Shown here: in pieces, positions 36,003 to 61,292 of the stretch
Position numbering within the stretch: the stretch's first letter is position 1
Layout of the letters: every line of letters begins with the position of its first letter
Origin: Candidatus Latescibacterota bacterium
Lineage (GTDB): Bacteria > Krumholzibacteriota > Krumholzibacteriia > WVZY01
Reading direction: 5' to 3'
Assembly: GCA_011772205.1 (NCBI GenBank)
Contig: WVZY01000071.1
Coordinates: 1-64,000 of the forward strand
DNA length: 64,000 nt
The notes under the pieces: generated by a model
Database searches by the model: none
Told to the model about the DNA's origin: nothing
The model's input: the letters and a program-made list of their open reading frames with translations, nothing else
Translations under genes and position numbers: made by a program

Positions 36003-36635
36003 ATGAGCGAATCTCTAACGCTCGACATGCTGGACCGATGCGGTAACGCCGCATGCCTCGATTTCGTCAACACGGTTCACTCACGTGTTGAGCAAGACAC
36101 CCACGACTACCTGGGAACGTACAACGATCTCATTCGTTGGGGACGGGACGGTGGACTTGTCTCCGGCAGGGAATACCGGGATTTGGCCAAAGCGGCCAAG
36201 ACGGACCCGCGCTCAGCAAGCCGCGTGCTGAGACAGGCGCTGGAGTTGCGCGAGCTTCTCTACCGGATTTTCTCATCGGTTGCGCGGGAAGCCAAGCCAA
36301 CGTCCGGAGACGTCACCGCCTTCAATCGCCGGCTCTCCGTGCTCGGCCGCCGTCGCCTGCAGCGTACCACCACCGGAATCGAATGGACGTGGGAGGAGAA
36401 CAGCCAGGCGCTCGACCGTCCGTTGTGGCCGGTCGTGTTGTCCGCAGCCGAGCTTTTATCATCACCGCAACTCCCACGCGTCAAAGAATGTCCCGCACCC
36501 GACGGGTGCGGGTGGCTGTTCCTCGACACCAGCAAGAACGGAATGCGGCGCTGGTGCAACATGCGCACGTGTGGCAACATCGCCAAGGCCAGACGCTACT
36601 ACCGGCGCCACACCAAGAGCGACCGCAAGCGATAG
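36003..36635 (+). CDS. CGNR zinc-finger/ABATE-domain regulator
   Basis: A 210-residue protein with an N-terminal ABATE-type domain (L-D-F-V-N-T-V at about 19-25) and a C-terminal zinc-ribbon DNA-binding domain: C-P-A-P-D-G-C-G-W-L-F-L-D-T-S, then R-R-W-C-N-M-R-T-C-G-N and A-R-R-Y-Y-R-R-H. The naming C-G-N-R motif reads C-G-N-I here. Such proteins are presumed stress-responsive transcription factors. It is divergent from the monooxygenase-like/EamA operon across a palindromic promoter, so it very likely represses both itself and that operon. A bidirectional terminator follows. Confidence 0.88.
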   Translation: MSESLTLDMLDRCGNAACLDFVNTVHSRVEQDTHDYLGTYNDLIRWGRDGGLVSGREYRDLAKAAKTDPRSASRVLRQALELRELLYRIFSSVAREAKPTSGDVTAFNRRLSVLGRRRLQRTTTGIEWTWEENSQALDRPLWPVVLSAAELLSSPQLPRVKECPAPDGCGWLFLDTSKNGMRRWCNMRTCGNIAKARRYYRRHTKSDRKR

Positions 36636-36727
36636 AGTAGCTTTCTCAGCTGCCGCTTCCCAGGTGAGGACGACATGTCATCGCAAGTCCAATGCCCCCT
36701 ATCGAGGAAATCCAAGATCCAAGCAAA

Positions 36728-36770
36728 ACAAAATGCCCCGGTCCCGGATTTCCAGGACGGGGCATTTTTT
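36728..36770. terminator. Bidirectional intrinsic terminator
   Basis: AAAATGCCCCG-G-TCC (about 36730-36744) pairs with GGACGGGGCATTTTT (36755-36769), with a one-base bulge. It is flanked by A and T runs, so it works on both strands between the convergent CGNR and TPR genes. Confidence 0.9.
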
Positions 36771-36807
36771 CTGTCTGCTCCCGCATCGACCGAGGTAACA
36801 ACCCGGA

Positions 36808-37884
36808 TTACTGTTCCTGGCTGTTTTCGGTTGAGTCGGCATCACTGACGCCGGCATCGCTGACCACAACGCTGTCCGCTCCCGGCTCGACAAATGTGGA
36901 CGCCTCGTTATCAAGCTTCGTGATGCTCCAGCTCTTGATCTCTTCGATGAAGTTCTGCGCAATAACCTCGAGCTCCACCGGCTCGAGTCCGGGATCTTCG
37001 ACCACTGCCTCGACACGGGCCAGATTGGCAACGGCGTTTTCATACGACTCATTGATAGCGATTGCCGCCAGGTACGCCTCCTCGGCGGCCCGAAAATGTC
37101 CAGTATGCTCGAGTACCATGCCCAGGTTGTTCCGAAAGACCGCAATGTCATCTCTCAGCTCGACGGCACGCGCCAGGGGCGGTAGTGCCTGATCGAAGCG
37201 CCCTTCCTCGATCAATACGAGAGCCATGTTGTTCATCGACCACGCATCCTCGTTATCGATCTGTATCGCTTGCCGATAAGCATCGATCGCCTCTTCAGCT
37301 TTTCCCAGCTGGTAATATGCCCGGCCTCTGAGACGGTATGCGACGTTCGATTCCGGATCGAGCGCCATGGCTTCGTTGATCTTGCCCATTGCTTCTTTTG
37401 GCCGGCTCATTTCCAGGAGCACGCGGCTCAAGTTTAGCAAGCTCTTCACATGAAGCGGATCGAGCTCCAGCGCCTGCTCGAAAGCATCTTCTGCAAACTC
37501 ATGCTCGCCTTGTTTCCATGCCGAAAGACCCAGCATGTAGTAACCCCATGGATTCTCGCTCTTGCGATCGGTGTACAATGTGAACAGCTCCATCGCATCG
37601 TCATAGCGCTTCTCATGGAAAGCGGCTTCCGCTTCTTCGAAAGTAACCTCCTTCGGCGGCTCCAGTTTCGAGACTACGGCTGCTTCTGTTTCGCCAGCGA
37701 TGCGCGTCGTATCGACTTCCGGAGCAGCTGGCACCGTCGACACCGGCCTGCTCTCCTTTGCGGTCCGGACAGCGACGTCCTCCTTATCACCGCTGCAGCC
37801 GACCACGGCCATGAAAGCTGCCAGCGCCGCGACACAAGCAATACCAACAATCACGACGCCTCGGATTTTGAATGTGGACAACAT
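36808..37884 (-). CDS. TPR-repeat lipoprotein under sigma-54 control
   Basis: A 358-residue lipoprotein: the lipobox is V-V-G-C with Cys30 lipidated. After a Pro/Thr-rich spacer come about six TPR units (residues 80-290; for example W-G-Y-Y-M-L-G-L-S-A-W-K-Q-G, A-F-E-Q-A-L-E-L-D-P, N-N-M-A-L-V-L-I-E-E-G). The tail is acidic. TPR lipoproteins act as periplasmic scaffolds. AAGGAGG precedes the ATG. A GG-N10-GC promoter lies about 70 bases upstream, and two identical-arm palindromes lie further upstream. It is the gene after the NtrC-type regulator, so it is a likely direct target. Confidence 0.87.
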   Translation of the reverse strand: MLSTFKIRGVVIVGIACVAALAAFMAVVGCSGDKEDVAVRTAKESRPVSTVPAAPEVDTTRIAGETEAAVVSKLEPPKEVTFEEAEAAFHEKRYDDAMELFTLYTDRKSENPWGYYMLGLSAWKQGEHEFAEDAFEQALELDPLHVKSLLNLSRVLLEMSRPKEAMGKINEAMALDPESNVAYRLRGRAYYQLGKAEEAIDAYRQAIQIDNEDAWSMNNMALVLIEEGRFDQALPPLARAVELRDDIAVFRNNLGMVLEHTGHFRAAEEAYLAAIAINESYENAVANLARVEAVVEDPGLEPVELEVIAQNFIEEIKSWSITKLDNEASTFVEPGADSVVVSDAGVSDADSTENSQEQ

Positions 37885-37953
37885 GGTGAGCCTCCTTTCT
37901 GGTTCGAGCCCTTATGGGCTGCGCTCACTGACCTGCCTTCGAAGCACCTATAA

Positions 37954-37970
37954 GGCAAGGTGAGGACCAA
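37954..37970 (-). promoter_or_regulatory. Sigma-54 (-24/-12) promoter of the TPR lipoprotein
   Basis: On the minus strand TTGGTCC-TCACC-TTGCC matches TGGCAC-N5-TTGCW at the invariant GG (37968-37967) and GC (37956-37955), which are exactly ten bases apart. The predicted start of transcription is near 37943, about 60 bases before the ATG. Confidence 0.75.
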
Positions 37971-38066
37971 ACGGCAGATAGGACGACGGCCATGCTGTAA
38001 CTATTTGTTTCATAATGAATTGGAAATTCGGCAGATCATTGAAGGGTTGCTTCTCAGAAGTGATTT

Positions 38067-38116
38067 GTGTCCAGATGGACACGTGTTTGATCGCCAAATT
38101 GTGTCCGGGCGGACAC
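38067..38116 (-). promoter_or_regulatory. Two palindromic upstream activator sites
   Basis: GTGTCC-AGAT-GGACAC (38067-38082) and GTGTCC-GGGC-GGACAC (38101-38116) have identical perfect 6-base arms, and their centres are 34 bases apart, about three helical turns. They lie about 125-175 bases upstream of the predicted sigma-54 start point, the usual place for enhancer-binding proteins, and just after the stop of the regulator gene. Confidence 0.8.
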
Positions 38117-38122
38117 GTACGA

Positions 38123-39478
38123 TTAGGGGCGTTTGATCTTGTGGCGTCGCATAATCTTGAGCAAGCTGGCATGGTCGGCGAGCCCGAGATCTTTCGCCGT
38201 GCGGGTAATGTGCCAATCGTTACGCTCGAGAGCCGCAATGATGATCTGCCGTTCAGCCTCCACCTTCAGCTCTTGCAATGTCTTGAGCTGCGGACTGCTT
38301 TTGGGCGCGACACCTCCTCGCACCTCGATGGGCACTTGATCGAACCGGATCATGTCGGCGTCGGCAGCGATAATCATGCGCTCGATGACGTTCCTTAGCT
38401 CGCGAACGTTGTTGTGCTTCCACTCATAAGCCATCAAACAGTCAAGCACTTCGGGATGGATCCGCTTTCTGCGGACGCCGAACCGGGCACAAGTACCGGC
38501 TAGGAAGTGCTCGGTGAGTTCCTGAATGTCCGATTGGCGATCTCGCAGCGGCGGTACGCGGACGATATGCACGTTCAATCGGTAATAGAGATCCTGCCGG
38601 AATCGCCCAGCACCTACATCGGATTCCAGGTCGCGGTTGGTCGCAGCAACCACTCTGGCGTCTACTTTAATGCTGCGCTCACCACCCAACCGAGTCACCT
38701 GCCGTTCCTCGATTACCCGAAGCAGCTTGGCCTGTGCCGACAGGGGCAAGTCGCCAATTTCATCGAGAAACAACGTTCCCCCGGTGGCCAACTCGAAGGC
38801 TCCTTTGTGCGTACGATTCGCCCCGGTGAAAGCCCCCCTTTCGTGGCCGAACAACTCGCTTTCGATCAAGTTCTCTGGAAGCGCAGCACAGTTGATCGCT
38901 ACGAAGGGCCTCTTCGGATCGGATCCCAGACGATGGAGCTCCCGGGCGACGAGCTCCTTCCCCGTACCGCTTTCGCCAACTATCAGCACGGGGCTGGGGA
39001 TGTGCGCCACACGGGCGACCTGTTCTCTCAACCGCTGCATCGGCTGGCTCGAGCCGATGAGGGGCGTCTCCGTTCCCAGATCCCTCTTGAGTGTCTCAAT
39101 CTCGGCCTCCAGCCTCACCCGCTCGAGGGCGTTCTCTACCTCCCGAGCCACCCGCTCCATCGATTCCGCCTTGTCGATGAAACTGGTTGCGCCGAGCTTG
39201 ATCGCCTTGACGCATCGATCGTAGTCGCCCGTTCCCGTATAGACGATGACGGGGATTTGTATGCTTTGATTTTTCAGTGTACGGAGTACTTCAAAACCAT
39301 CGACACCGGGCATCTCGAGATCCAGAATCATGCAGTCCACTGCCTCGCTCGCGATGATGTCGAGCGCCTCTTTTCCTCCTGTCGCGACCAGCGTCTCGTA
39401 ACCCCCGACTCTCTTCAAGTCGTAGGCGTACTGTTCCGCCAGGGCTTGAACATCATCGACAACTAATACCAGCGTCAT
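38123..39478 (-). CDS. NtrC-family sigma-54-dependent response regulator
   Basis: A 451-residue three-domain activator. The receiver domain (1-120) has Asp8-Asp9 and the phosphoacceptor Asp53 in M-I-L-D-L-E-M-P. The AAA+ ATPase has Walker A G-E-S-G-T-G-K-E, the sigma-54-contacting G-A-F-T-G-A, and Walker B L-F-L-D-E-I-G-D. The C-terminal Fis-type helix-turn-helix ends in I-M-R-R-H-K-I. The start at 39478 follows GGGAG with good spacing. The kinase gene lies 41 bases upstream. Palindromes just downstream of its stop fit as its binding sites. Confidence 0.95.
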   Translation of the reverse strand: MTLVLVVDDVQALAEQYAYDLKRVGGYETLVATGGKEALDIIASEAVDCMILDLEMPGVDGFEVLRTLKNQSIQIPVIVYTGTGDYDRCVKAIKLGATSFIDKAESMERVAREVENALERVRLEAEIETLKRDLGTETPLIGSSQPMQRLREQVARVAHIPSPVLIVGESGTGKELVARELHRLGSDPKRPFVAINCAALPENLIESELFGHERGAFTGANRTHKGAFELATGGTLFLDEIGDLPLSAQAKLLRVIEERQVTRLGGERSIKVDARVVAATNRDLESDVGAGRFRQDLYYRLNVHIVRVPPLRDRQSDIQELTEHFLAGTCARFGVRRKRIHPEVLDCLMAYEWKHNNVRELRNVIERMIIAADADMIRFDQVPIEVRGGVAPKSSPQLKTLQELKVEAERQIIIAALERNDWHITRTAKDLGLADHASLLKIMRRHKIKRP

Positions 39479-39519
39479 TTGCATAACTCCCAAAACGTGA
39501 TTGCCGGCCTCTCCAAACT

Positions 39520-41259
39520 CTACGCCGTGCCTGCTCCCGGCAGATCAATGATGAAGCGACTCCCTTTCCCTTCCTCGCTCTCTACATGGATGGAGCCATC
39601 GAGATCCATGACGAGTCTCCGGACTATCGATAGGCCCAAACCCGAACCATTGTCCTTTGTCGTATAGAAATCGTCGAAGACTTTCGCTTGCTGATCAGCG
39701 CTCATGCCAATTCCCGTATCGGCTACCGTAATCCGTACCCGCGGTCGATCGGCCTCCCCCGCAACGAGCTCCGTTGAAATGGCGACATTCCCCGGCCGCG
39801 ACTCGAGACTATCGATGGCGTTGTTCACAAGGTTCTCGAGCACTCGCCGTAATGAGACGGGATCGCCGAGAACGACAGCCTTGTTGCTGAGGTTCATCAG
39901 AAGGTCCACTTGGCTCGAACCCCGGAGATCCGTCGCAACTCGCTGGACAACATCGTTCACGTCGCATGGCCGGTTTTCGCTTCGTGGATACAGGCGCGCA
40001 TAGTTGGATGCAAGATCCTCCAGATAGGAGATGCTGGAATCAAGCGTGCTCTGTCTTTCTTCGAAGACATCCGGCAGCTGTTTCGGATTGCTCCGCGCCA
40101 ATTCTATTAGATGGCGAAACACATTGCGGATTGGTGTGAGTCCATTCTTGATATCGTGGTTCACTTGCCTCGCAAGCTCTCCCAGTGTCGCACGACGCTC
40201 AGCGTCCTTGATCCGGACTGCGCTCGCGCGCAGTCTCTCCGTCATGGCGCCAAGCAGCCGCGAGAGGGAGCCGATTTCATCTTTGCGGCGAGTTTCAAAA
40301 TCGATGTCCAAGCGATCGAGATCGATGCGTGATGTCTTGTCGGCAAGCTCTACGAGCGGCCGGCTGATCCGTGAGGCAAGCCAGCCCACTAACATAACAG
40401 CGAGAATACCGGCAGCAGCCACTGCTACCAGAAACCATCGATCGATGCTGCCGCGCAGAGCCTCCAACTCGGTAAGCCGGTGAGTCACTCGGAACTGTGC
40501 GAGTGCTAACTCTCCACGTTTCGAATCAATGAAAGGAACACTCAGCTCTCGCGCAATCGCGCTCGCCGGAGCAGCATCACGCAACGTTTCCACTCCCGGC
40601 TGTACATCATCTCCTGATTCAGATCGGTCCATACCGGAAGTCAGCATGCCTCCCGGATAGACTAGCGCCACCGTGAGCTCGGCCTCACGTGCCAGCCGAG
40701 CAAGAAAACGGCGTTCCACCCTCAATCCAGCGACGATCGTGAACCGTTTGTTCCCCATCTGAAAGGAGTCGGCACGAGCCAGAGCGAGAAAAGGTGCGTC
40801 CGGAGCCCGCGCTTGCACCAGCGCTATGCCCTCGGGCGTGGAAGCCAGCAGTGTCGGCAGCTCCGGCTCCATCCGATCGTACTCGTTGCGGAAATGTCCG
40901 GAACTGATGATGCGGCCGGCTTCATCCTGGATCTGGAGCATAGACAGTCCGGTGAGCTGCATTGCATTCCCCGCGTAGTCGAGAAGGTAACGCCGCTCCT
41001 CCTGGGCGCGATCCACTGCAGCCCGGCGAAATCGATTATCGTCGACTACGGCCTTCCGAATGACAGCAAGTGACGTGCTAATTGCTTCACTCTCCTGCGC
41101 CAGATCCTCCTCGATAACTGCAACCAGCGATTCGACCCGGCGCTCGTACTGAGCCGTGAGTCGATCCGTCATTTCATCGCGAACGAACAGTGCAAGCGCG
41201 ATCAGGGGGAGAAGCACGGCCAGGAGAAATGTAACGAGCAGCCGGGTGCGGAACGTCAC
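39520..41259 (-). CDS. Membrane sensor histidine kinase with HAMP
   Basis: A 579-residue kinase. Membrane helices at about 7-25 and 272-293 flank a periplasmic sensor of about 245 residues. A HAMP domain (about 294-345) follows, then an H-box R-Q-V-N-H-D-I-K-N-G-L-T-P, an N-box N-L-V-N-N-A-I-D, and G boxes D-T-G-I-G-M and G-S-G-L-G-L-S. The H-x-x-K-N pattern is that of NtrB/DctB-like kinases that drive sigma-54 regulators. The GTG start at 41259 lies six bases after the binding-protein stop and uses a ribosome site within that gene's end. The periplasmic sensor may be read out through the adjacent binding protein. Confidence 0.93.
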   Translation of the reverse strand: MTFRTRLLVTFLLAVLLPLIALALFVRDEMTDRLTAQYERRVESLVAVIEEDLAQESEAISTSLAVIRKAVVDDNRFRRAAVDRAQEERRYLLDYAGNAMQLTGLSMLQIQDEAGRIISSGHFRNEYDRMEPELPTLLASTPEGIALVQARAPDAPFLALARADSFQMGNKRFTIVAGLRVERRFLARLAREAELTVALVYPGGMLTSGMDRSESGDDVQPGVETLRDAAPASAIARELSVPFIDSKRGELALAQFRVTHRLTELEALRGSIDRWFLVAVAAAGILAVMLVGWLASRISRPLVELADKTSRIDLDRLDIDFETRRKDEIGSLSRLLGAMTERLRASAVRIKDAERRATLGELARQVNHDIKNGLTPIRNVFRHLIELARSNPKQLPDVFEERQSTLDSSISYLEDLASNYARLYPRSENRPCDVNDVVQRVATDLRGSSQVDLLMNLSNKAVVLGDPVSLRRVLENLVNNAIDSLESRPGNVAISTELVAGEADRPRVRITVADTGIGMSADQQAKVFDDFYTTKDNGSGLGLSIVRRLVMDLDGSIHVESEEGKGSRFIIDLPGAGTA

Positions 41260-41265
41260 GATGAA

Positions 41266-42780
41266 TTACCTCCCCTGCGGCATCACGTTCACTAAGAGGA
41301 TGTTGCCGTACCAATCGGCTATCAATCCAATCTTCCCGCTAGCTGCGATCACGTGCAGGCGCGTGTCCACGAGCGGAATCAGAGCCTTGGAAAAATCGTC
41401 TCCTAGGTTCGCAAGCCACTGTGCGCTGCTTATCAACTTGCGCGCTTCAGCACATGGATCGGGCGGCCGCCGTGGAATCGATATAATGTAGGCGAAGTCG
41501 CTACCGTTTAAAAGGCTCGAGAGCAGTTCGCCCTCTGTAACTCCCTCAGCGATCACTCCGGGAGCGTCACTGCCCAGACCCGGGACTGCAAAGGCGATTG
41601 CCCTCGCCTCGGGAGAAACGGTGGGATCCGTCGCCGCAAGAGCGACGATCCGTTCGGCGAGGTCCCGGGCGATGGGATCATTCGAATCATAAAGGATGCG
41701 GCGCAAATCTGATAACGAATATGGACCTTCCGGCACGGGTGGAAAATCCGAGACAGCAGCGGACAGTTCATAGCACTCATTATGGAGATCATCCCACCAA
41801 GACGGGGGCCGATAACCTCGGGCATCGCCTCTCACTGCATCCCGCGCTAGTCTTTCCGAAAGATCCGGAGAGATCGTTCCAAGCTTGCCCCCCCACCGGA
41901 GTTTCTCGACGCGGGATGTCGAGAGGAGCACATATGCCCTGTCCCACGGCAGCGGAACGGTCGTGAACTGTGGCCGGCTTGTTGCGTACTCGATCACGGC
42001 TGGATCGGTCGTGATCATCACATCGATCCCACCTTCGAGCAGATCTCGTGCGTCGTACATGGACGTTTCGAGGAACCGGACAACGGGTCTCTCCGCACCG
42101 TAAGCTGGGTGAACCGTAATCGTGCGCTTGGCGATCCCAGCGAATCTTCTCTCCGATGTTACAATCCGATAAGGCCCGGAACCTAGAGGCCAGCGCGAGG
42201 CCCAGGAGGGCTTCGCCACCGCAAACGCAGACGCGGAAAGCGCACGCGGAACCTTTCGATGCATGTGTTTGAAGTAAACGTTCAAAACCCGATCACCGCC
42301 GACGGCGAGCGAATCGATACCGGCAGCGCTGTATGAATCGATACCGGCGTTGAGTGTCATTGATTCGTCTGCAGCGCGCTCCCAGCTTCTCGCCACGTCG
42401 TGTGCAGTCACGGGAGTCCCGTCCCAAAAGCGTGCGTCCTCACGCAACTCAAACGTCCAGCAACGGCCTCTTTCTTCGCGTCTCCATGATTCAGCGAGGC
42501 CCGGTTGCACCTTATCCAGGCAATTGACGATGATCAAGGTCTCGTAAAGATGATGGAAAAGCAGCTGCTCACTGGCATTGCGCGCACGCGGGGCGTGTTC
42601 GGGCTCAACGGCATCCAACAGCGCTACGGTTATTGAGTCCGCTGCTTCTGCCGGTCCGAGTAAAATTTCACATCCCGGTGGGAGCATCCACAGCGGCTTT
42701 GTCACTGGCGGCTTCCCGCAGGCGGCCAAGACAGCGAGCGTCACCGCACCAATCGTTCTCAATAAAACTGATACACGCAT
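41266..42780 (-). CDS. Oligopeptide-type solute-binding lipoprotein (SBP_bac_5) without permease
   Basis: A 504-residue lipoprotein (L-A-A-C-G-K, Cys21) with the family 5 periplasmic binding-protein layout: a long beta-rich domain with L-A-E-S-W-R and W-T-F-E-L-R-E-D-A-R-F-W-D-G-T-P-V-T-A-H-D-V, the classic DppA/OppA signature. Usually such genes sit with four ABC transporter genes. Here none is present, and the gene is the first of an operon with a histidine kinase and an NtrC-type regulator. The inference is that it is a sensor subunit that presents a peptide or other ligand to the kinase. No strong ribosome site precedes its ATG. Confidence 0.88.
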   Translation of the reverse strand: MRVSVLLRTIGAVTLAVLAACGKPPVTKPLWMLPPGCEILLGPAEAADSITVALLDAVEPEHAPRARNASEQLLFHHLYETLIIVNCLDKVQPGLAESWRREERGRCWTFELREDARFWDGTPVTAHDVARSWERAADESMTLNAGIDSYSAAGIDSLAVGGDRVLNVYFKHMHRKVPRALSASAFAVAKPSWASRWPLGSGPYRIVTSERRFAGIAKRTITVHPAYGAERPVVRFLETSMYDARDLLEGGIDVMITTDPAVIEYATSRPQFTTVPLPWDRAYVLLSTSRVEKLRWGGKLGTISPDLSERLARDAVRGDARGYRPPSWWDDLHNECYELSAAVSDFPPVPEGPYSLSDLRRILYDSNDPIARDLAERIVALAATDPTVSPEARAIAFAVPGLGSDAPGVIAEGVTEGELLSSLLNGSDFAYIISIPRRPPDPCAEARKLISSAQWLANLGDDFSKALIPLVDTRLHVIAASGKIGLIADWYGNILLVNVMPQGR

Positions 42781-43011
42781 AATGGGTTAGGAGCTCTAGG
42801 ATTCCCTGTTTCCTGTAAGAGATGATAATAGGATGAGAAGACCTGTCAATGGTATTACGAATTGGCCCTGATCCCTCAAGAATAACAGTAGGATGTTGTG
42901 CTCGAACTCAACCATGTGCAAAAACGGGATGAGACTCGACAAAATTATGTATTTGGCATTTTCTGACTTCTCGCTCTATCATCGATTCTCATAGAAAGGA
43001 GGGGCCGTGAA

Positions 43012-43761
43012 ATGAGCGAACAAGAGGCGAGTTTTCCGAAATTAACGATCCGCGAGCTTTTCCATCCACCGCTACAAGACCGCCGAAGCTTCATCAAGAT
43101 GATGGTCATTGGTGGTTTGACCATTACGGTCGGAGGTGTGGTCATACCACGCCTGCGATTCGGGGTTGCACATGCCGAGAGCCCGCAGTTCAGTATGATC
43201 CTGGTGGATTTCAATAAATGTACGGGTTGTCGAACATGTGAAACCGTATGCGGGCAATATAATCACAAAGCGGTCGTGAACGGTGAGCAATTGTTGGGCC
43301 TGGGAAATCCATATTTATCTAACATCCGCGTATATTCCTTCAACCCGGATGTGGATGTCCCCATTGTCTGTGTGATGTGCCGGGACAACCCTTGTATCGA
43401 AGCCTGCCCTGTTGAAGAGGACGAGGACGGACGGAGGGCGTTGTACAGGGATCCAAAAACTCTAGCCATAAAAAACGATCCCGAGAGATGTATCACCTGC
43501 GGTGCTTGCGCCGAAGCCTGCCGGACCCAGCGTGTGGAAGCGATTGTCCCGAATCCAAAGACAAATCGTCCGGAGAGGATGTGCACATTATGCGATGGCG
43601 ATCCTCAGTGCGTTAAGTACTGTCCCTATGGTGCCCTCGATCATATTGTTGGAGGATATATCGGAGGGAGCCATTACGGATTGCCTGCAGAAAAGATTGC
43701 AAAGGAGCTGATCGAACGATGGTATGGCGTTAAGCTGGGGAAAGGGGGTGCGAGAGGATGA
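43012..43761 (+). CDS. Tat-exported-type four-cluster ferredoxin subunit
   Basis: A 249-residue iron-sulfur protein. A twin-arginine signal D-R-R-S-F-I-K (about 24-30) precedes a hydrophobic segment ending A-H-A. Four [4Fe-4S] binding sets follow: C-T-G-C-R-T-C-E-T-V-C, C-V-M-C-R-D-N-P-C-I-E-A-C, C-I-T-C-G-A-C-A-E-A-C and C-T-L-C-D-G-D-P-Q-C-V-K-Y-C, the DmsB/HycB pattern. It carries electrons to or from the aldehyde oxidoreductase whose start overlaps its stop by four bases. A strong AAAGGAGG precedes the ATG. Confidence 0.93.
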   Translation: MSEQEASFPKLTIRELFHPPLQDRRSFIKMMVIGGLTITVGGVVIPRLRFGVAHAESPQFSMILVDFNKCTGCRTCETVCGQYNHKAVVNGEQLLGLGNPYLSNIRVYSFNPDVDVPIVCVMCRDNPCIEACPVEEDEDGRRALYRDPKTLAIKNDPERCITCGACAEACRTQRVEAIVPNPKTNRPERMCTLCDGDPQCVKYCPYGALDHIVGGYIGGSHYGLPAEKIAKELIERWYGVKLGKGGARG

Positions 43762-45560
43762 AAAGCCTTAGTGGATATCACGGTGTAGTTCTGGATGTCG
43801 ATCTTTCTTCAGGAAAGATCAACCGGAAGGAAATCGATCCCAAAGATTTCCGGAATTTTATTGGTGGAAGGGGACTCGGTATCAAGCTCCTCTGGGATGC
43901 CCTTCGGAAACCCGGCGTTGATCCCCTTTCGCCAGAGAATCCGCTCCTGCTCATGCCCGGAGCTTTCTCCGGTTTCCCGCTTCCTTCGGCATCTCGGACA
44001 TGTGTCGTGACGAAATCGCCCATCACAACTCCCAAGAAATCGAAACATAAGCACGCGTCCACTATAACTTATTCAAACATGGGTGGCTTTTTCGGCCCTG
44101 AAATTCGCTTCGCCGGTTACGACGGCATAATGGTCCGCGGTAGCGCGGATCGACCCGTATACCTCTTCATCGATGACGATCGCGTGGAAATACGGAAGGC
44201 CCAGAAGTTCTGGGGGATGGGCACAGACGAATTCGATCGTGCCTTTATCGATGAATTAGGAGACCGCCGCATCCGATCATGCTACATAGGTCCGGCGGGC
44301 GAAAACCTCGTTCCGTACGCCTGCATTATCAATACGACGGCGAGAGCAGCCGGCAGAGGCGGAACGGGATGCGTCATGGGGTCCAAGAATCTGAAGGCGG
44401 TTGCCGTCCGGGGCTCCAGACAACCGGATGTGGCTATGCACAAGCGGTTCCTGGAGTTGCTCGAAGAATCACGCAAAGGATTTGAAGGCACTCCCAGTAC
44501 AGAGAACTGGCGACGATATGGTACAGGATCGGCATTGATCTGGGCCAGCGATATCGGTGCCCAGGCGGTTAAGAACTACCGGGAAGGCACTTACATCCAT
44601 GCGGATAAGATAGGTGGAGTCGCCGCCAGGCGGAAAATCTGGCAGCGCGACTTTGCTTGTTTCGTTTGTCCTTTAGCGTGCAAAAAGTCGGGAAGAGCGC
44701 CCCTCGGGCCCTACGCGGGCATCGTGCACGACGGCCCGGAGTATGAAACGGGCACGATGCTCGGGGCCAACCTGTTAATCGACGACATGGAAGGAATGAT
44801 GAAAGCCATCTGGCACGGGGACGACTTCGGATTGGACATCATATCTGTAGGGAACGTTATAGGCTTTCTAATGGAAGCATACGACAAGGGACTGATTGAC
44901 CTTGATGTCCTCGATGGAATCGACCTCAAGTGGGGAAACGTCGATGCCGTCATCCAAATGCTGCACAAAATCGCTCATCGCGAGGGGATTGGGGAAAAGG
45001 CAAGCAAGGGAGTGCATTACCTGGCTGAAGAGATCGGCCGGGAGAGTCATAAATTCGCCGCTCATTGCAAAGGCCATTCGCTTGCCGCCTGGAATTGCCA
45101 CTATCGCCCGACGCAGGCACTTTGCTATGTGACGGCGAATAGAGGGGCATGCCATTTGAACGGCCACTCAGCGGAGGATCAAAACTCCACAGCGCTTGTC
45201 GACTCGACGGGAGTATGTCTCTTTGCCCATCGGGGATACCGCGAGAATGCCCTGGCCGATATTATGGAGGCGATCACAACGCGTGAATGGTCCTCCGAAG
45301 AGTACTCGAAAGCAGGTGAGCGGATTTACAACCTTGAAAAGAGCTTCAATTTCCGCGAAGGTTTTCGCCGCGAGGACGATGTGATTGCCGATAGATTCTT
45401 CGAGGAACCGTTGACAATCGGAAGGCGGAAAGGCGCTGTTCTCGACCGAGGCCAATTCGAAGAAATGATGAATGCGTATTATGCAGAGCGCGGTTGGGAT
45501 TCGAAAACGACCCAGCCATCAAAGGATCGCTTGAAAGCTCTCGGGCTGGATTTCGTCTAA
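43758..45560 (+). CDS. Tungsten-type aldehyde ferredoxin oxidoreductase
   Basis: A 600-residue AOR-family enzyme that oxidises aldehydes (or reduces acids) with a tungsten/molybdenum bis-pterin and one [4Fe-4S] cluster. The cluster ligands are C-F-V-C-P-L-A-C (about 294-301) and the Cys in D-S-T-G-V-C-L-F (about 490). The N-terminal domain 1 has the G-G-R-G-L-G motif typical of AOR. No export signal is visible, although its ferredoxin partner has a Tat signal. The two are overlapped (ATGA), so they form one complex. The exact aldehyde cannot be told; the nearest uses are aromatic or aliphatic aldehyde metabolism in anaerobes. Confidence 0.94.
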   Translation: MKSLSGYHGVVLDVDLSSGKINRKEIDPKDFRNFIGGRGLGIKLLWDALRKPGVDPLSPENPLLLMPGAFSGFPLPSASRTCVVTKSPITTPKKSKHKHASTITYSNMGGFFGPEIRFAGYDGIMVRGSADRPVYLFIDDDRVEIRKAQKFWGMGTDEFDRAFIDELGDRRIRSCYIGPAGENLVPYACIINTTARAAGRGGTGCVMGSKNLKAVAVRGSRQPDVAMHKRFLELLEESRKGFEGTPSTENWRRYGTGSALIWASDIGAQAVKNYREGTYIHADKIGGVAARRKIWQRDFACFVCPLACKKSGRAPLGPYAGIVHDGPEYETGTMLGANLLIDDMEGMMKAIWHGDDFGLDIISVGNVIGFLMEAYDKGLIDLDVLDGIDLKWGNVDAVIQMLHKIAHREGIGEKASKGVHYLAEEIGRESHKFAAHCKGHSLAAWNCHYRPTQALCYVTANRGACHLNGHSAEDQNSTALVDSTGVCLFAHRGYRENALADIMEAITTREWSSEEYSKAGERIYNLEKSFNFREGFRREDDVIADRFFEEPLTIGRRKGAVLDRGQFEEMMNAYYAERGWDSKTTQPSKDRLKALGLDFV

Positions 45561-53450: not shown

Positions 53451-55844
53451 CTATTTGCTCATCGAGTAGGGTGCGCAATCAATTTGTGATGCCCATTCTG
53501 TATTGGGTCCCGGTCCCAACTCGAAAACAAGTCGGCCGCCATTTATTACATCCTCGTGATGAATATAGCTACGTTTATGCTCTTTGCCATTCAATGTTAC
53601 CGATTGGATATAAATGTTTTCCTCATTTAGATTCCTTGCTTCGACCACAAATTCTTTTCCATTTTCCAGATGAATGACCGCTTTCTCGACGCATGGACTT
53701 CCAATCACGTATTCGTTGCTTCCAGGACAGACCGGGTAAAATCCCATCGAGCTAAAAATGTACCAGGCGGACATTTGGCCGCAGTCATCGTTGCCGCAAA
53801 GGCCATCAGGCGAGTTCCTATACATTGATTTTACTATTTGATGAATTCTTTCCTGGGTTTTCCATGGCACCCCAGCATAACAGTACAAATAAGGAACGTG
53901 GTGACTCGGCTCGTTGCCGTGGACATAATTGCCAATAATGCCAGCCTTGTCGATATCTTCGCTGTGAACATAACTGTCTTCTGAAATTTCCATTACGAAC
54001 AACGAATCGAGCCAAGTAACCAGCTTCTCCTTTCCACCTAATAATTGAATAAAACCACTCACATCATGAGGCACATAGAGGGAATAATTCCATGCATTAC
54101 CTTCGATATATCCCTGTCCCGATGTGCTCAATGGATCGAAAGGGGTTATCCAACGGCCATCAGAGTTTTTAGCACGCAAGAATTTTGTCTTATCATCATA
54201 AAGGTTTTTGTAGTTTCCCGCTCTTTTCTTGAATGCTTCGGCAATGTCATTGTTACCAATTGCCTCGGCAAATCTGTATATTGTCCAATCATCGTAGGCA
54301 TATTCCAGCGTCTTGGAAGCGGAATTGGTGTTGAGATCCTCAGGCACATAACCATACTTTTTGTAATACCCGATCCCATCATACTTGTCATATGAAGCGC
54401 TCGAGATGACCGCTTCGAAAGCTTTTTCTATATCAAATCCCCGAATACCTTTCATATAGGCATCAACGATAACCGGAACGCTGTGATAGCCGACCATGCA
54501 CCAATTATCATTGGCATGATGCGACCAGACGGGGAGCAGTTTGTGAACGCTCTGATCATAATGGGCAAGCATGGAATGTATCATGTCGCTCGTTCGTTGC
54601 TGCTGAAAGATTGTTAGCAAGGGGTGAAGGGCTCTGTACGTATCCCACAAAGAAAAAATCGTATAGTTCGTGAATTCGTTCGATTGATGAATGTTCTGAT
54701 CCAATCCGCGATATTCCCCATTGACATCGGAATAAACGACGGGACTCAAAAAACAGTGATACATTGCCGTATAGAATATTGTCTTCTTATCTTTACTGCC
54801 TTCAATGGTGAGTTTTGATAGTTCGTTGTTCCAGAGGTTCTTCGCCTTACTCTTGATTTCATTGAAATTCCACTGGGGAATTTCTGCGTTCAGGTTTTCC
54901 AGAGCATTCTGGGTACTGACTCCAGACAAGGCAAGCTTGATCAGGATTTCCTCTTCATCTTCCGTATCGAAATCAAAAAACGCCTTTACTTTCCTGCCCG
55001 CCCTTTCCGGGAAATTGTCGTTTTCATTCCATTTTCGCCAGAAGTCTCTGTATACCAATTTTTCTTCGTTTCTCAGGCCATACGATTTAAACGGCTTCGA
55101 AAATGCCATCGCGAAATATATATATCTGGTTCTGGCCCAGCCGTGTGTCTGCCTGAAACCGGTCACCAGCGTGTCACTTTCTACCCGGACGGACGACCAC
55201 ACGACCTTTCCCTCGTAGTTATATATACCGGTGGTCAAATCGAGAATGACATGGGCCTTTTCCGTCCTTGGAAACGTGTACTTATGAAATCCTACTCGTT
55301 CCGTCGCTGTCAGCTCTACATCGATGCCGTAATCCTCCAGCTCAACGCCGTAATATCCCGGATGCGCTGTTTCGCTGCTATGCGAATATCTCGACCGGTA
55401 CCCGCTATCCGGATTGCCTTTCGTCCCGGGATTCAGCTTGAGGTCGCCAACAGTCGGCATGATCAAAAAGTCCCCTAAATCAGAATGACCGGTCCCATGA
55501 AAATGCGTATGGCTAAAGCCAACTATTGTTTCATCATCATACTGGTATCCAGAACAATATCTGTAAACGTCAGGATTATAGCCTTTACCGTAGCTGTATA
55601 AGACTGTATCCGTCTCGGGGCTGAGCTGTACCATGCCGAATGGCACCGTTGCGCCCGGGTAGCAATGCCCCATATCCCTGGTACCTATAAATGGATTCAC
55701 ATAGTCGTATGGCGTTTTATCTTTTTGCATATTCGATGAAATCCCCTTCGGCCCACCGCTTTCTTCTGAAGTATCTGATTTCTCACTACAATTTGCAATT
55801 ATAGCGACAAAAATCATGCAAAAAAGGACCATCATGATTTTCAT
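53451..55844 (-). CDS. GH92 alpha-mannosidase lipoprotein
   Basis: A 797-residue glycoside hydrolase of family 92, which removes terminal alpha-1,2 (or other) mannose with Ca2+. The opening V-N-P-F-I-G-T-x-x-x-G-H and P-G-A-T-V-P-F-G-M-V-Q-L-S-P are diagnostic, as are E-G-N-A-W-N-Y-S and G-N-D-D-C-G-Q-M-S-A-W-Y near the catalytic Asp/Glu. The signal has a lipobox-like I-A-N-C (Cys19). The start at 55844 overlaps the stop of the GH47 gene (ATGA). The region is distinctly AT-rich compared with its flanks, suggesting acquisition. Confidence 0.94.
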   Translation of the reverse strand: MKIMMVLFCMIFVAIIANCSEKSDTSEESGGPKGISSNMQKDKTPYDYVNPFIGTRDMGHCYPGATVPFGMVQLSPETDTVLYSYGKGYNPDVYRYCSGYQYDDETIVGFSHTHFHGTGHSDLGDFLIMPTVGDLKLNPGTKGNPDSGYRSRYSHSSETAHPGYYGVELEDYGIDVELTATERVGFHKYTFPRTEKAHVILDLTTGIYNYEGKVVWSSVRVESDTLVTGFRQTHGWARTRYIYFAMAFSKPFKSYGLRNEEKLVYRDFWRKWNENDNFPERAGRKVKAFFDFDTEDEEEILIKLALSGVSTQNALENLNAEIPQWNFNEIKSKAKNLWNNELSKLTIEGSKDKKTIFYTAMYHCFLSPVVYSDVNGEYRGLDQNIHQSNEFTNYTIFSLWDTYRALHPLLTIFQQQRTSDMIHSMLAHYDQSVHKLLPVWSHHANDNWCMVGYHSVPVIVDAYMKGIRGFDIEKAFEAVISSASYDKYDGIGYYKKYGYVPEDLNTNSASKTLEYAYDDWTIYRFAEAIGNNDIAEAFKKRAGNYKNLYDDKTKFLRAKNSDGRWITPFDPLSTSGQGYIEGNAWNYSLYVPHDVSGFIQLLGGKEKLVTWLDSLFVMEISEDSYVHSEDIDKAGIIGNYVHGNEPSHHVPYLYCYAGVPWKTQERIHQIVKSMYRNSPDGLCGNDDCGQMSAWYIFSSMGFYPVCPGSNEYVIGSPCVEKAVIHLENGKEFVVEARNLNEENIYIQSVTLNGKEHKRSYIHHEDVINGGRLVFELGPGPNTEWASQIDCAPYSMSK

Positions 55845-57214
55845 TGAACTCTCCAAATCTTTAAGGGATGCGCCTCCGTATTGAATATGACCTCGTCGAA
55901 ATCAACTGTTTCTTTTGGAGCGAAAATCAAATAGAAATACTTCATCGTTTCAGCAAGAAAAAAGCTTTCCATTGCATCCTGTTGTTCTTTTGTTTTGACA
56001 CTTTTCAAGTGAGCATAGGCCACATCATTCCTGCAATATTTCACGAGATTCTCGAAATACTCTTTTCCCATCCCAAGATATTTGGAGTCTTCCGTAAAAT
56101 GATACAAGTAATAGACCGACTCGATATTCTCCGGCCGGAGAATGTAATAATCTGCGACGACTTCCATCGTCGAATAGTCGATCATTTCCGGTTCTATTTC
56201 GTATAACATCCACATTTTATAGCAGCTCTTCTGTAATTTTGCTGCCCGCTCGAGATCGCCGCTCAACGCCAGAACCGCAGGGAAAAAGGCATCCAGAGCC
56301 CCAAAATAAGTACTTGTTGTTTCCGTTGTATTCATGTCCACGCGGCGATACCAGAAGCCGCTCTCGGCCTCATCTGCTAAATGTTTGTTTACCGCTTTGA
56401 TACTTGTGTCCCACATCTTTTTTATATCTCGATCGCCGAACATTAGCCAGCTCTTCAATAAGTACTCATAATACGAGTCGATCCTTGCACTTATATGTGA
56501 TTCAGTATCTTGCCACTTCCCTGTTTCGACATTGATAGCGGTTCCCACCAAGTCATTATTTGAGCGCTTATTGAATAATGCTTGAACGGCCCGTTTTGCT
56601 TTTTGATAATAAATCGGATTGCCAGTTATCTTCGAAAGCGTTCCCCACTCGAGTAACAACGTTCCAATTTCTGCCGGGTTGTTCAGCGGGTCCTTTGTTT
56701 TACCGCTTGCTAGATTGACATAGCGATAGGGCATGCCGGTCCGTGAGTCGAATGCCGGCAGCAACCGGCTCGCCAGATCCACGGCCAATTTTAGAAACCT
56801 CTCATCACCGTCCAATTGATATGCAGACAATAGACTGCCTAACGATCTAATATTGATCTCGAATAGCTGTACATCCATGTCGATATCAAATGACAAGCTT
56901 TCAAGAATCAAGTTCTTGGCCTCTTCTGCTTCTCTGTCCAACCTCATGATTTTCATCGTGCTAAAGGCGTCTACCGGTGTCATCAATAGCGGTTTTTTAT
57001 GCCAATCACGATAGCCTTTTGATAGCGGTTTCAATTCATCGTGTCCCCATGCGTACTTTTTGTATCCCTCCCAAGCATGTAGAAACTCCGCCTTGACTCT
57101 TTCAGCAAGTAATTCTTTGTCCAGCGCCTCCTTTTTAACAGGAGCTTTACTCTCATCGTCGCTGCAGCCAAATGTCATGCAAACAAGCGCGATGATAAGA
57201 ATGAGTTTTTTCAA
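55841..57214 (-). CDS. GH47-type alpha-mannosidase lipoprotein
   Basis: A 457-residue (alpha/alpha)7-type protein matching class I alpha-1,2-mannosidase: E-I-N-I-R-S-L-G-S-L-L-S-A-Y-Q-L, R-Y-V-N-L, A-E-I-G-T-L-L-L-E-W, and the family-ending F-N-T-E-A-H-P-L whose Thr binds Ca2+. The TTG start at 57214 follows AAAGGAG and gives a lipobox signal T-F-G-C (Cys17). GH47 is common in eukaryotes and scattered in bacteria. Paired and overlapped with GH92, it would trim high-mannose glycans. It lies in the AT-rich segment. Confidence 0.88.
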   Translation of the reverse strand: MKKLILIIALVCMTFGCSDDESKAPVKKEALDKELLAERVKAEFLHAWEGYKKYAWGHDELKPLSKGYRDWHKKPLLMTPVDAFSTMKIMRLDREAEEAKNLILESLSFDIDMDVQLFEINIRSLGSLLSAYQLDGDERFLKLAVDLASRLLPAFDSRTGMPYRYVNLASGKTKDPLNNPAEIGTLLLEWGTLSKITGNPIYYQKAKRAVQALFNKRSNNDLVGTAINVETGKWQDTESHISARIDSYYEYLLKSWLMFGDRDIKKMWDTSIKAVNKHLADEAESGFWYRRVDMNTTETTSTYFGALDAFFPAVLALSGDLERAAKLQKSCYKMWMLYEIEPEMIDYSTMEVVADYYILRPENIESVYYLYHFTEDSKYLGMGKEYFENLVKYCRNDVAYAHLKSVKTKEQQDAMESFFLAETMKYFYLIFAPKETVDFDEVIFNTEAHPLKIWRVQ

Positions 57215-59069: not shown

Positions 59070-61292
59070 ATGCTCGATGGCGTAAAGGAGGTTCCCAGAC
59101 TGGATTCTAGACAACATCATAATCAGAACGCGGACCGCCCTCCAATGCCAACTGCCGTCGGCTCGGATCGGGGAAGCACCTGGTGGATGCAAACTCTCTC
59201 CCTGCTCGCCGTGGCGCTTCTCCTTTCCACCAACGTTTGTCTCTTCGGGACTTTTGAGATCTACGTTCCCAACAGAGCGGAGTTCGATTCGACCTACCGC
59301 GAGATGTTACCCCTCCTGCTGGGCTTTTGTCTGGGACTTTCAGCTTTTATCGTCATCGTCGGCTGGCTCCTCCCACGGCGACCCCGCAGCGTTTACAGAG
59401 CCATCCTTCTAGCCCTTGGAATGCTGCTGTGGATTCAGGGAAGCTTCCTCAAGTGGGGCTACGGAGAGTTCGACGGCAGGGGCGTCGCTTGGGCGAAGTT
59501 TACCTGGCAGGGATGGGTCGACGCGGCGATCTGGGTGGCATTTCTGATCCTGGCGATACGTTTTCACCGGCGCTTATCCCGGCATGCCTTGTTTGTGGCC
59601 CTCGCGTTCATCGTCATCCAGAGCGGCTTCATGGTCACGCGGGCGGTGATACAGCGGGACGGTATCGCGCCTGAAGAGAGCGCGAAAGAGAAGGATGCCG
59701 CCGTTCCTCAGGAGCTTTGCCAGCTTTCCAAATCCCTCAACGTGTTCCACATCATCATGGACGCTTTTCAAACAGACGTGTTTTTGGAGCTCGTGGAGGA
59801 AGAAGGCCTGATGGAAGACCTCGACGGATTTGTGATCTACAAAGACAACATGTCGGTTGGGGGAAGGACGGTCCTGTGCATTCCTGCCATTTTCTCGGGC
59901 AAGCTGTTCGACGGAACTCAAACGGAGTCCGAATACTTCCGTGATGCCATGAACAACAGCTTCCACAATGTGCTGTTTCGCAATAACTACATCGTCAACT
60001 TGATGCCCCACATTACAATGCAGATAACACGCTACACGAACCACTTTTCCGTGCGGTCCACATACGCGACGCCTCGCAGGACAAGAATATGGAGAACGAC
60101 CAGCTTTCTCATAGACGTCAGCATGTTCCGGCAGGTCCCGCATTTCGCGAAACGGTTTATCTACAACGATGAAAACTGGCGCCTGAGCTCCCTCGCCTCC
60201 GATCCTCCGAGTCATGCATCGTTTCATCAGAAAGCGTTCTTTAGCGATTACATCAGCAGGCTAGAAGCGGTTCACTCCGAGCCCGCCTACCATTTCGTGC
60301 ATCTCATGCCTCCGCATCCGCCTTTCGTGACCACCGCCGACGGAAAATATGCGGGCAGAGCCCTGCCCAACACGCGCGACAACTACAAGAACGAAGCGCG
60401 CTAACTTCTCAAACTGTTCATGCAGTTCCTCGGAAAGCTCAAGAGATTGAACCTTTATGACTCGTCGATCATTGTATTTCAGGGAGATCACGGCTGGAGC
60501 TTTGCGCCGATCTTCGAGGGACGGGAGTTCGCGCAGAAAACGGCCAAAATTTCGGCCCTTTTGATACTCAAGACCCGTTCCGCTCGTGGCCCTTTGCGCA
60601 TCTCATTGGCCCCGTCGACGATTGCGGATATTCCCGCCACACTCCTCGATCTTTTGCAACTGCCTCACTCGTATCCCGGAGAGTCACTCGTCCGCCTCGA
60701 TCCCTCGATACAGCGGGACCGCGAGTTCGTATTCGTGACGGATAGGTCGGGTCCCGCTCCATCCATTCACCGCTGGATGGTGGAGGGAAGTGTTTTCGAT
60801 ACCACCTCTTGGCATGAAATGGAACCGACGCTCATAGAGCGTGAGATCCGCAGCTACACGTGGGGTAGGAAGTTTGGGTTCGGCATTGCAGGAGACGGCG
60901 AACCCTACCTGACATCCGGCTGGAGCACGACCTCGGGAACCGTGCATTGGAACGACGGTAAATCGGCTGAGATGACTTTTGGTATCACTCCCCCCGACAG
61001 AGACGTCAATCTGAGCATCGTCTTCTTTGCCAACGTAGTACCCGGCAAAGTGGATAAGCAGCGCATCCGAATGAATGTCAATGGCATCGATGTGAAAGAG
61101 TTTGATTGCACGACGAAGGCCCCTCAGCGTTTCGATGTCGTCGTTCCCCGGCAAGTTCTCAATACGGATCAGATGATCATCTCGTTCGAGTTCCCGGATG
61201 CTGTGGCCCCCAGCGAGATCGGCTCGGGAACGGACACTCGCATGCTCGCTATGGGTATTTACAGCTTCGAAGCCCAACTGGTATACCGGTGA
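59070..61292 (+). pseudogene. Alkaline-phosphatase-superfamily membrane protein split by an in-frame stop
   Basis: The two open frames (59070-60404 and 60420-61292) are in the same reading frame and separated only by TAA at 60402-60404. Together they encode about 740 residues. The N-terminal third has five membrane helices (from about residue 45). The catalytic domain starts with N-V-F-H-I-I-M-D-A-F and has P-P-H-P-P-F and the metal site F-Q-G-D-H-G-W-S-F, as in LTA-synthase/sulfatase-type transferases. The stop falls in the helix before L-K-L-F-M-Q-F-L. The start is uncertain: an AAAGGAGG at 59086 points to a CTG codon at 59100, or ATG 59070 or 59145. Confidence 0.75.

Follow-up and report, generated by a model that had tools for sequence, protein, structure and literature searches.

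A predicted single-target sigma-54 circuit with a binding lipoprotein, a histidine kinase, an NtrC-type regulator and a TPR protein in Krumholzibacteriota

Four adjoining genes from an uncultured bacterium, encoding a family-5 solute-binding lipoprotein (SBP), a sensor histidine kinase (HK), an NtrC-family response regulator (RR) and a membrane-anchored TPR protein, probably constitute a dedicated two-component sigma-54 circuit with a single target, the TPR gene, as its output. The original prediction had proposed a self-contained NtrC-type circuit of this kind. It was supported by the gene order, the occurrence of kinase and regulator as a pair of single-copy genes, a double enhancer that is unique in each genome and a promoter geometry that is constant across families; these features, together with the presence of the sigma factor, were demonstrated at the sequence level. 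The DNA originated from Candidatus Latescibacterota bacterium (GCA_011772205.1, contig WVZY01000071.1, positions 1-64,000, forward strand; GTDB lineage Bacteria; Krumholzibacteriota; Krumholzibacteriia; WVZY01). The window is this whole stretch of 64,000 nt, taken from a genome of about 4.13 Mb. The cassette spans 36808-42780 with all four genes on the minus strand in the order SBP-HK-RR-TPR. The genes were found at the positions predicted for them, and the Pfam domains agreed with each assignment. The features are as follows.

36722-36782, minus strand: intrinsic terminator behind the TPR gene (MFE of -33.5 kcal/mol, z = -5.3; stem and U-rich tail)
36808-37884, minus strand: membrane-anchored TPR protein, lipobox VVGC, TPR repeats (Pfam)
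37955-37969, minus strand: predicted -24/-12 (sigma-54) promoter of the TPR gene, TGGTCCTCACCTTGC
37998-38010, minus strand: AT-rich, IHF-like element AAACAAATAGTTA, matching 8 of 9 consensus positions
38067-38082: putative enhancer palindrome 2, promoter proximal, GTGTCC-AGAT-GGACAC, exact, 34 bp from palindrome 1
38101-38116: putative enhancer palindrome 1, distal, GTGTCC-GGGC-GGACAC, exact, 6 bp behind the RR stop codon
38123-39478, minus strand: NtrC-family response regulator; receiver, Sigma54_activat (GAFTGA) and HTH_8 (Pfam)
39520-41259, minus strand: sensor histidine kinase; HAMP and HATPase_c (Pfam), H-box NHDIKNGLTP
41266-42780, minus strand: family-5 solute-binding lipoprotein of 504 aa, lipobox LAAC, PF00496 (E = 1e-22)
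42822-42849, minus strand: predicted sigma-70-type promoter of the SBP-HK-RR operon, 41 bp upstream of the SBP start codon

The regulator, which starts at the ATG at 39478 rather than at a longer TTG frame, combines a receiver, an AAA+ domain with GAFTGA and a Fis-type HTH, as is characteristic of sigma-54 activators of the NtrC family. A palindromic enhancer lies upstream of its predicted target, a -24/-12 promoter is found at that target, and rpoN (sigma-54) is encoded in the genome. Comparison of 24 regulators showed that GAFTGA is kept with a single GAYTGA variant and that the receiver residues D8, D9, D53 and K103 are invariant. The recognition helix LGLADH[AS]SLLKIM[RK]R was near invariant in these sequences, as one would expect were the DNA site retained. 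Both palindromes were perfect, as had been predicted, and 34 bp apart. A genome-wide search for exact GTGTCC-N4-GGACAC, proposed originally as a way to define the regulon, returned two copies in 4.13 Mb, both upstream of the TPR gene at this locus. As far as exact sites show, the TPR gene would be the only target; single sites with several mismatches may exist elsewhere in the genome as weak sites. Conservation of the palindromes in relatives had been set beforehand as a test that could refute the prediction. We searched 80 genomes of the window's phylum (Krumholzibacteriota-type) for the 34-bp double site, allowing up to 3 mismatches and using a reversed control. The double site occurred once per genome in 11 of the 80 genomes, each time upstream of the orthologous TPR gene, and was absent from the control (0 sites); this comparison excludes a chance origin. 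The spacer sequence between the two palindromes was not conserved. A second form with a 25-bp spacing was present in family f8 (15 sites in 14 genomes), and a TPR gene was located within the fetched 3 kb in 12 of these 14 genomes. Three of the 15 sites, which carry 3 mismatches and are not accompanied by a TPR gene (L124, L130 and L131), may be due to chance. A double site at the TPR gene was observed in 21 of 46 genomes carrying the kinase or the regulator versus 2 of 34 noncarriers (Fisher p = 1e-4, with the genomes being non-independent). In the two exceptional noncarriers (G018 and G052), a contig end lies near the expected position of the regulator. The regulator is predicted to bind the palindromes.

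The GG-N10-GC promoter predicted at 37954-37970 was present, with its position shifted by about one base (37955-37969), and each of the 12 loci with the 34-bp spacing had such a box. The distance from palindrome 2 to the -24 box was 110 to 113 bp in 11 of these 12 loci (the window and ten others) and 99 bp in L083, and the proximal palindrome of the f8 loci was mostly placed 86 to 100 bp from the box. Between the -24 box and the TPR start codon, the distance ranged from 84 to 187 bp; the leader is variable, while the enhancer-promoter distance is near constant. The chance of finding an equally good -24/-12 match within the same interval of a shuffled region was 0.0005 to 0.022 per locus for the 110-113 loci. 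A combined pattern (GTGTCC-N6-ACAC, a gap of 65 to 95 bp and GG-N8-TTGC) was detected at 29 places in the 80 genomes and at none in the control; the gap misses the window (gap of 97), and the counts are therefore lower bounds for the 34-bp families. Most of the 29 places share a contig with the regulator or fall at the cassette or its TPR gene. Between enhancer and promoter, we observed an AT-rich element that the original prediction had not listed. Over 24 loci, the AT fraction peaked at 0.82 about 36 to 40 bp upstream of the -24 box. At a fixed offset, which was picked post hoc, the fit to the IHF consensus was matched by 0 of 2,000 local shuffles in the 34-bp group and gave p = 0.005 in the 25-bp group. 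The genome contains three genes of the HU/IHF family. We withheld a firm assignment to IHF: the position of the element is consistent with it, but most loci taken singly fit the consensus weakly.

A consensus scan identified a sigma-70-type promoter ahead of the SBP gene (TTGACA-16-TATCAT, 11 of 12 consensus matches). Transcription of the TPR gene from a sigma-70 promoter would have spoken against the circuit; the same scan found no such promoter within 36600-38200, which includes the region upstream of the TPR gene, whereas the operon has one. A non-consensus sigma-70 promoter may be present there. The promoter before the SBP gene, the lack of a consensus promoter before the TPR gene and the terminator behind it therefore point to two units: SBP, HK and RR would form one operon, and the TPR gene would be transcribed from its own predicted sigma-54 promoter behind the stop codon of the regulator.

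The cassette recurs within the class, with nearly unchanged spacings. With the SBP as query, we scanned 84,980 GTDB genomes by a method that detects close relatives only; such relatives fell within Candidatus Krumholzibacteriota, apart from two weak general matches. Among the 80 phylum genomes, the kinase orthologue was present in 44 and the regulator orthologue in 40, always as one copy, and both were located on one contig in nearly every carrier. The co-occurrence search suggested with the prediction yielded at least 17 genomes from five families with all four genes in the same order on a single contig (the window, L068, L070, L071, L074, L076, L078, L081, L082, L083, L085, L087, L088, L089, L091, L096 and L097). 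Several carriers are draft genomes in which contig ends fall at the cassette. Around window-type cassettes, no conservation of outer neighbours was detected beyond the four genes. One locus, L082 (G035), displayed an additional ORF of about 212 aa between kinase and regulator, degenerate palindromes with 5 mismatches over the two sites and, in the whole-genome search, a kinase match that contains one in-frame TAG; decay of the circuit in this genome is possible.

The kinase comprises a transmembrane segment, an extracytoplasmic sensor, a second transmembrane segment, HAMP, H-box and HATPase. The H-box (NHD..NG) was kept in 30 of 30 kinase sequences, and the intact catalytic residues suggest that HK phosphorylates RR. 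The sensor domain is the only part of the cassette that does not come from a known family. It gave no significant Pfam family match in the members scanned, and a profile of the domain returned only chance matches among PDB sequences. Foldseek matches with the whole kinase were dominated by the kinase core. In the structural model, the sensor part has alpha/beta elements preceded by a long helix, and the domain may be PDC-like. Within the window's group, the kinase domain contains a near-invariant motif, MLQIQD..GRIISSGHFRNE.

The SBP scored above the gathering threshold of PF00496, and the fold of its AF2 model (pLDDT of 87.7) agreed with family 5, resembling NikA, AapF, MppA, OppA and DppA. 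It shares fold and sequence family with these Cluster C binding proteins, although its identity to the solved structures is only about 11 to 17% over the aligned fold. Unlike them, it has no adjoining permease gene and is encoded together with a kinase; genes with PF00528 are located on other contigs of the genome. For proteins of the NikA/OppA type, the ligands are peptides, Ni chelates or signal molecules, so that the SBP may bind any of these classes. A secreted S49-family peptidase of about 860 aa is encoded between RR and the TPR enhancers in most f8 loci (L096:1741-4320, minus strand; L089, L090, L097, L101 and L103). In L104 (G036), an S49 homologue directly follows an SBP homologue, and neither a kinase nor a regulator orthologue was found in this genome. 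SBP homologues outside the circuit adjoin a gene for an M1-family aminopeptidase that has a FlgD_ig domain (L107:4543-6483 and L092:917-3214). The recurrence of such peptidase neighbours tilts the prediction towards a peptide-like ligand of the SBP.

The output had been described as a TPR lipoprotein. A lipobox is present in the window and in most members of families f1, f2, f6 and f7, but this description does not cover all relatives: in G075, G076 and the f8 members, the N terminus is hydrophobic and lacks the lipobox cysteine. Therefore, the conserved property is membrane anchoring and not lipidation. Control of envelope functions by sigma-54 is a general trend (PMC3162934), and the TPR protein probably acts as an envelope scaffold on the sensed process. 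The proposed circuit would operate as follows. The sigma-70 promoter would drive joint production of binding lipoprotein, kinase and regulator. A small ligand, most likely peptide-like, would load the SBP, and the loaded or the empty form would alter the activity of the extracytoplasmic domain of the kinase, which would then phosphorylate the regulator. The regulator would occupy both GTGTCC-N4-GGACAC sites immediately downstream of the gene encoding it and, with the DNA bent at the AT-rich element, would activate sigma-54 polymerase at the -24/-12 box. Judged by exact sites, transcription of the TPR gene and of nothing else in the genome would result, and the anchored TPR protein would act in the envelope. 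An extended version would be a closed-loop one-gene circuit typical of a bacterial class: the SBP would act as the ligand subunit for a kinase whose sensor is unclassified, and the TPR protein, besides being the sole output, would associate with the sensor complex. This version is speculative and rather doubtful as a whole.

Contact between SBP and kinase is suggested by the operon structure; it is possible, if somewhat unlikely, that the regulatory half works as proposed but the SBP is a co-transcribed ordinary or orphan transporter component, with the kinase itself sensing a ligand or the membrane state. SBP homologues without an adjoining kinase or regulator in some genomes (L092, L104, L105 and L107) would fit such a role, as would Opp/Dpp-type permeases elsewhere in the genome and the stronger divergence of the SBP among relatives (25 to 70% identity, compared to 36 to 78% for the kinase and 54 to 80% for the regulator). 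However, in nearly all carrier loci that were read, an SBP gene sits immediately ahead of the kinase gene, frequently separated from it by a few bases or none, no permease gene is located beside it in the window, and the near-invariant kinase motif is compatible with docking of the SBP. At the other end of the circuit, the TPR protein might be a feedback component that binds the SBP or the kinase sensor and dampens or amplifies the signal, which would close the loop without an effector. We consider this improbable. The protein is the only predicted target and probably shares its compartment with the SBP and the sensor domain, and no further co-conserved gene was found behind it in the relatives' loci; a class-wide circuit that produces only its own modulator would, however, need another, unseen output.

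The palindromes themselves could in principle be RNA hairpins serving as terminator or attenuator of the three-gene operon instead of DNA sites, given that they are able to fold as hairpins in RNA and, in 9 of 11 loci with the 34-bp spacing, lie within about 11 bp of the end of the RR gene. We rejected this highly improbable reading. The arm sequence itself is conserved beyond pairing, mismatches that break the pairing exist (GTGTCCAAAAAGACAC and GTGTCCAAGCAGACAC), no T run follows the palindromes, and both the palindrome spacing (34 or 25 bp) and the distance to the -24 box hardly vary. Moreover, most f8 palindromes are located 2 to 3 kb behind the regulator and yet upstream of the TPR gene.

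With respect to described systems, the PEP-CTERM regulatory system PrsK/PrsR/PrsT has the same trio of kinase, NtrC-type regulator and TPR protein, sometimes with a repeated motif and a -24/-12 promoter (PMC1569441), and its profiles TIGR02915, TIGR02916 and TIGR02917 match weakly. The scores were nevertheless below the curated cut-offs (359 versus 502.6, 83 versus 300 and 82 versus 312 bits, respectively), and Prs motif 1 has a TTTACA 3′ end and serves many PEP-CTERM targets (PMC1569441), in contrast to GTGTCC-N4-GGACAC here. No binding protein has been described for PrsK-PrsR-PrsT, whereas the present cassette has an SBP. A search for PEP-CTERM proteins in the genome gave no match, and control genomes were equally without a match. 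Membership in this system was rejected because of the scores and the different DNA motif; we regard the chance that it applies as extremely small. The regulator architecture is shared with NtrB/NtrC, AtoS/AtoC and ZraS/ZraR, which include the best profile matches: RR reached 381 bits with ntrC (TIGR01818) and 379 bits with AtoC, and HK reached 148 bits with AtoS, none attaining the curated cut-offs. RR is thus not NtrC itself, its score being below the TIGR01818 equivalog cut-off of 558.6, and the cassette differs from these systems in having its own sensor domain, DNA site, accessory SBP and single target. In Vibrio quorum sensing (LuxP-LuxQ-LuxU-LuxO), LuxO is an NtrC-family sigma-54 activator that drives several small RNAs, LuxP belongs to a different binding-protein family, and LuxQ, a hybrid kinase, signals by a phosphorelay via LuxU. 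In LuxPQ, a periplasmic binding protein passes information to a kinase through the extracytoplasmic domain of the latter (PMC8534201), and by analogy the cassette may work alike. Here, the binding protein is of family 5, the kinase is simple, the regulator gene adjoins and one target is predicted. The LuxPQ binding protein forms a complex with a tandem PDC sensor domain; the modelled sensor of the present kinase displays alpha/beta elements and has no sequence relative in Pfam or the PDB. Membership in LuxPQ was rejected, as the SBP_bac_5 protein has a NikA/OppA-like fold and not the ribose-binding-like fold of LuxP and as the kinase ends after HATPase without a receiver domain.

In the literature searched, we found no description of this combination, of its single target or of its class-wide conservation; strict term sets for SBP-kinase-sigma-54 systems retrieved none, and a published study on Krumholzibacteriota does not mention two-component systems. 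For an uncultured lineage, the cassette offers a pathway for which the sequence specifies the sensor, the DNA site, the promoter and the target, so that it could be rebuilt and tested in a laboratory strain. If the proposed role of the SBP is true, the known cases of kinases informed by binding proteins would be extended by one with a binding protein of family 5 and a sensor domain that is unclassified. The recognition helix and the palindrome form a testable specificity pair for NtrC-type regulators, and the retention of a regulator for one target across a class raises the question of the role of the TPR protein.

The wider window contained further loci of note. A divergent pair at 43012-45560, encoding a ferredoxin-like 4Fe-4S protein and an aldehyde ferredoxin oxidoreductase, adjoins the cassette; no homologue of the pair was found beside the cassette in the relatives' loci. 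Two adjacent ORFs on the same strand (59070-60404 and 60420-61292) resemble halves of one sulfatase-like membrane protein, the second having a GDHGW motif near its start; neither matched Pfam, and they possibly represent a split or broken gene. Finally, a GH92 glycosidase of the alpha-mannosidase family with a lipoprotein-like N terminus is encoded at 53451-55856.
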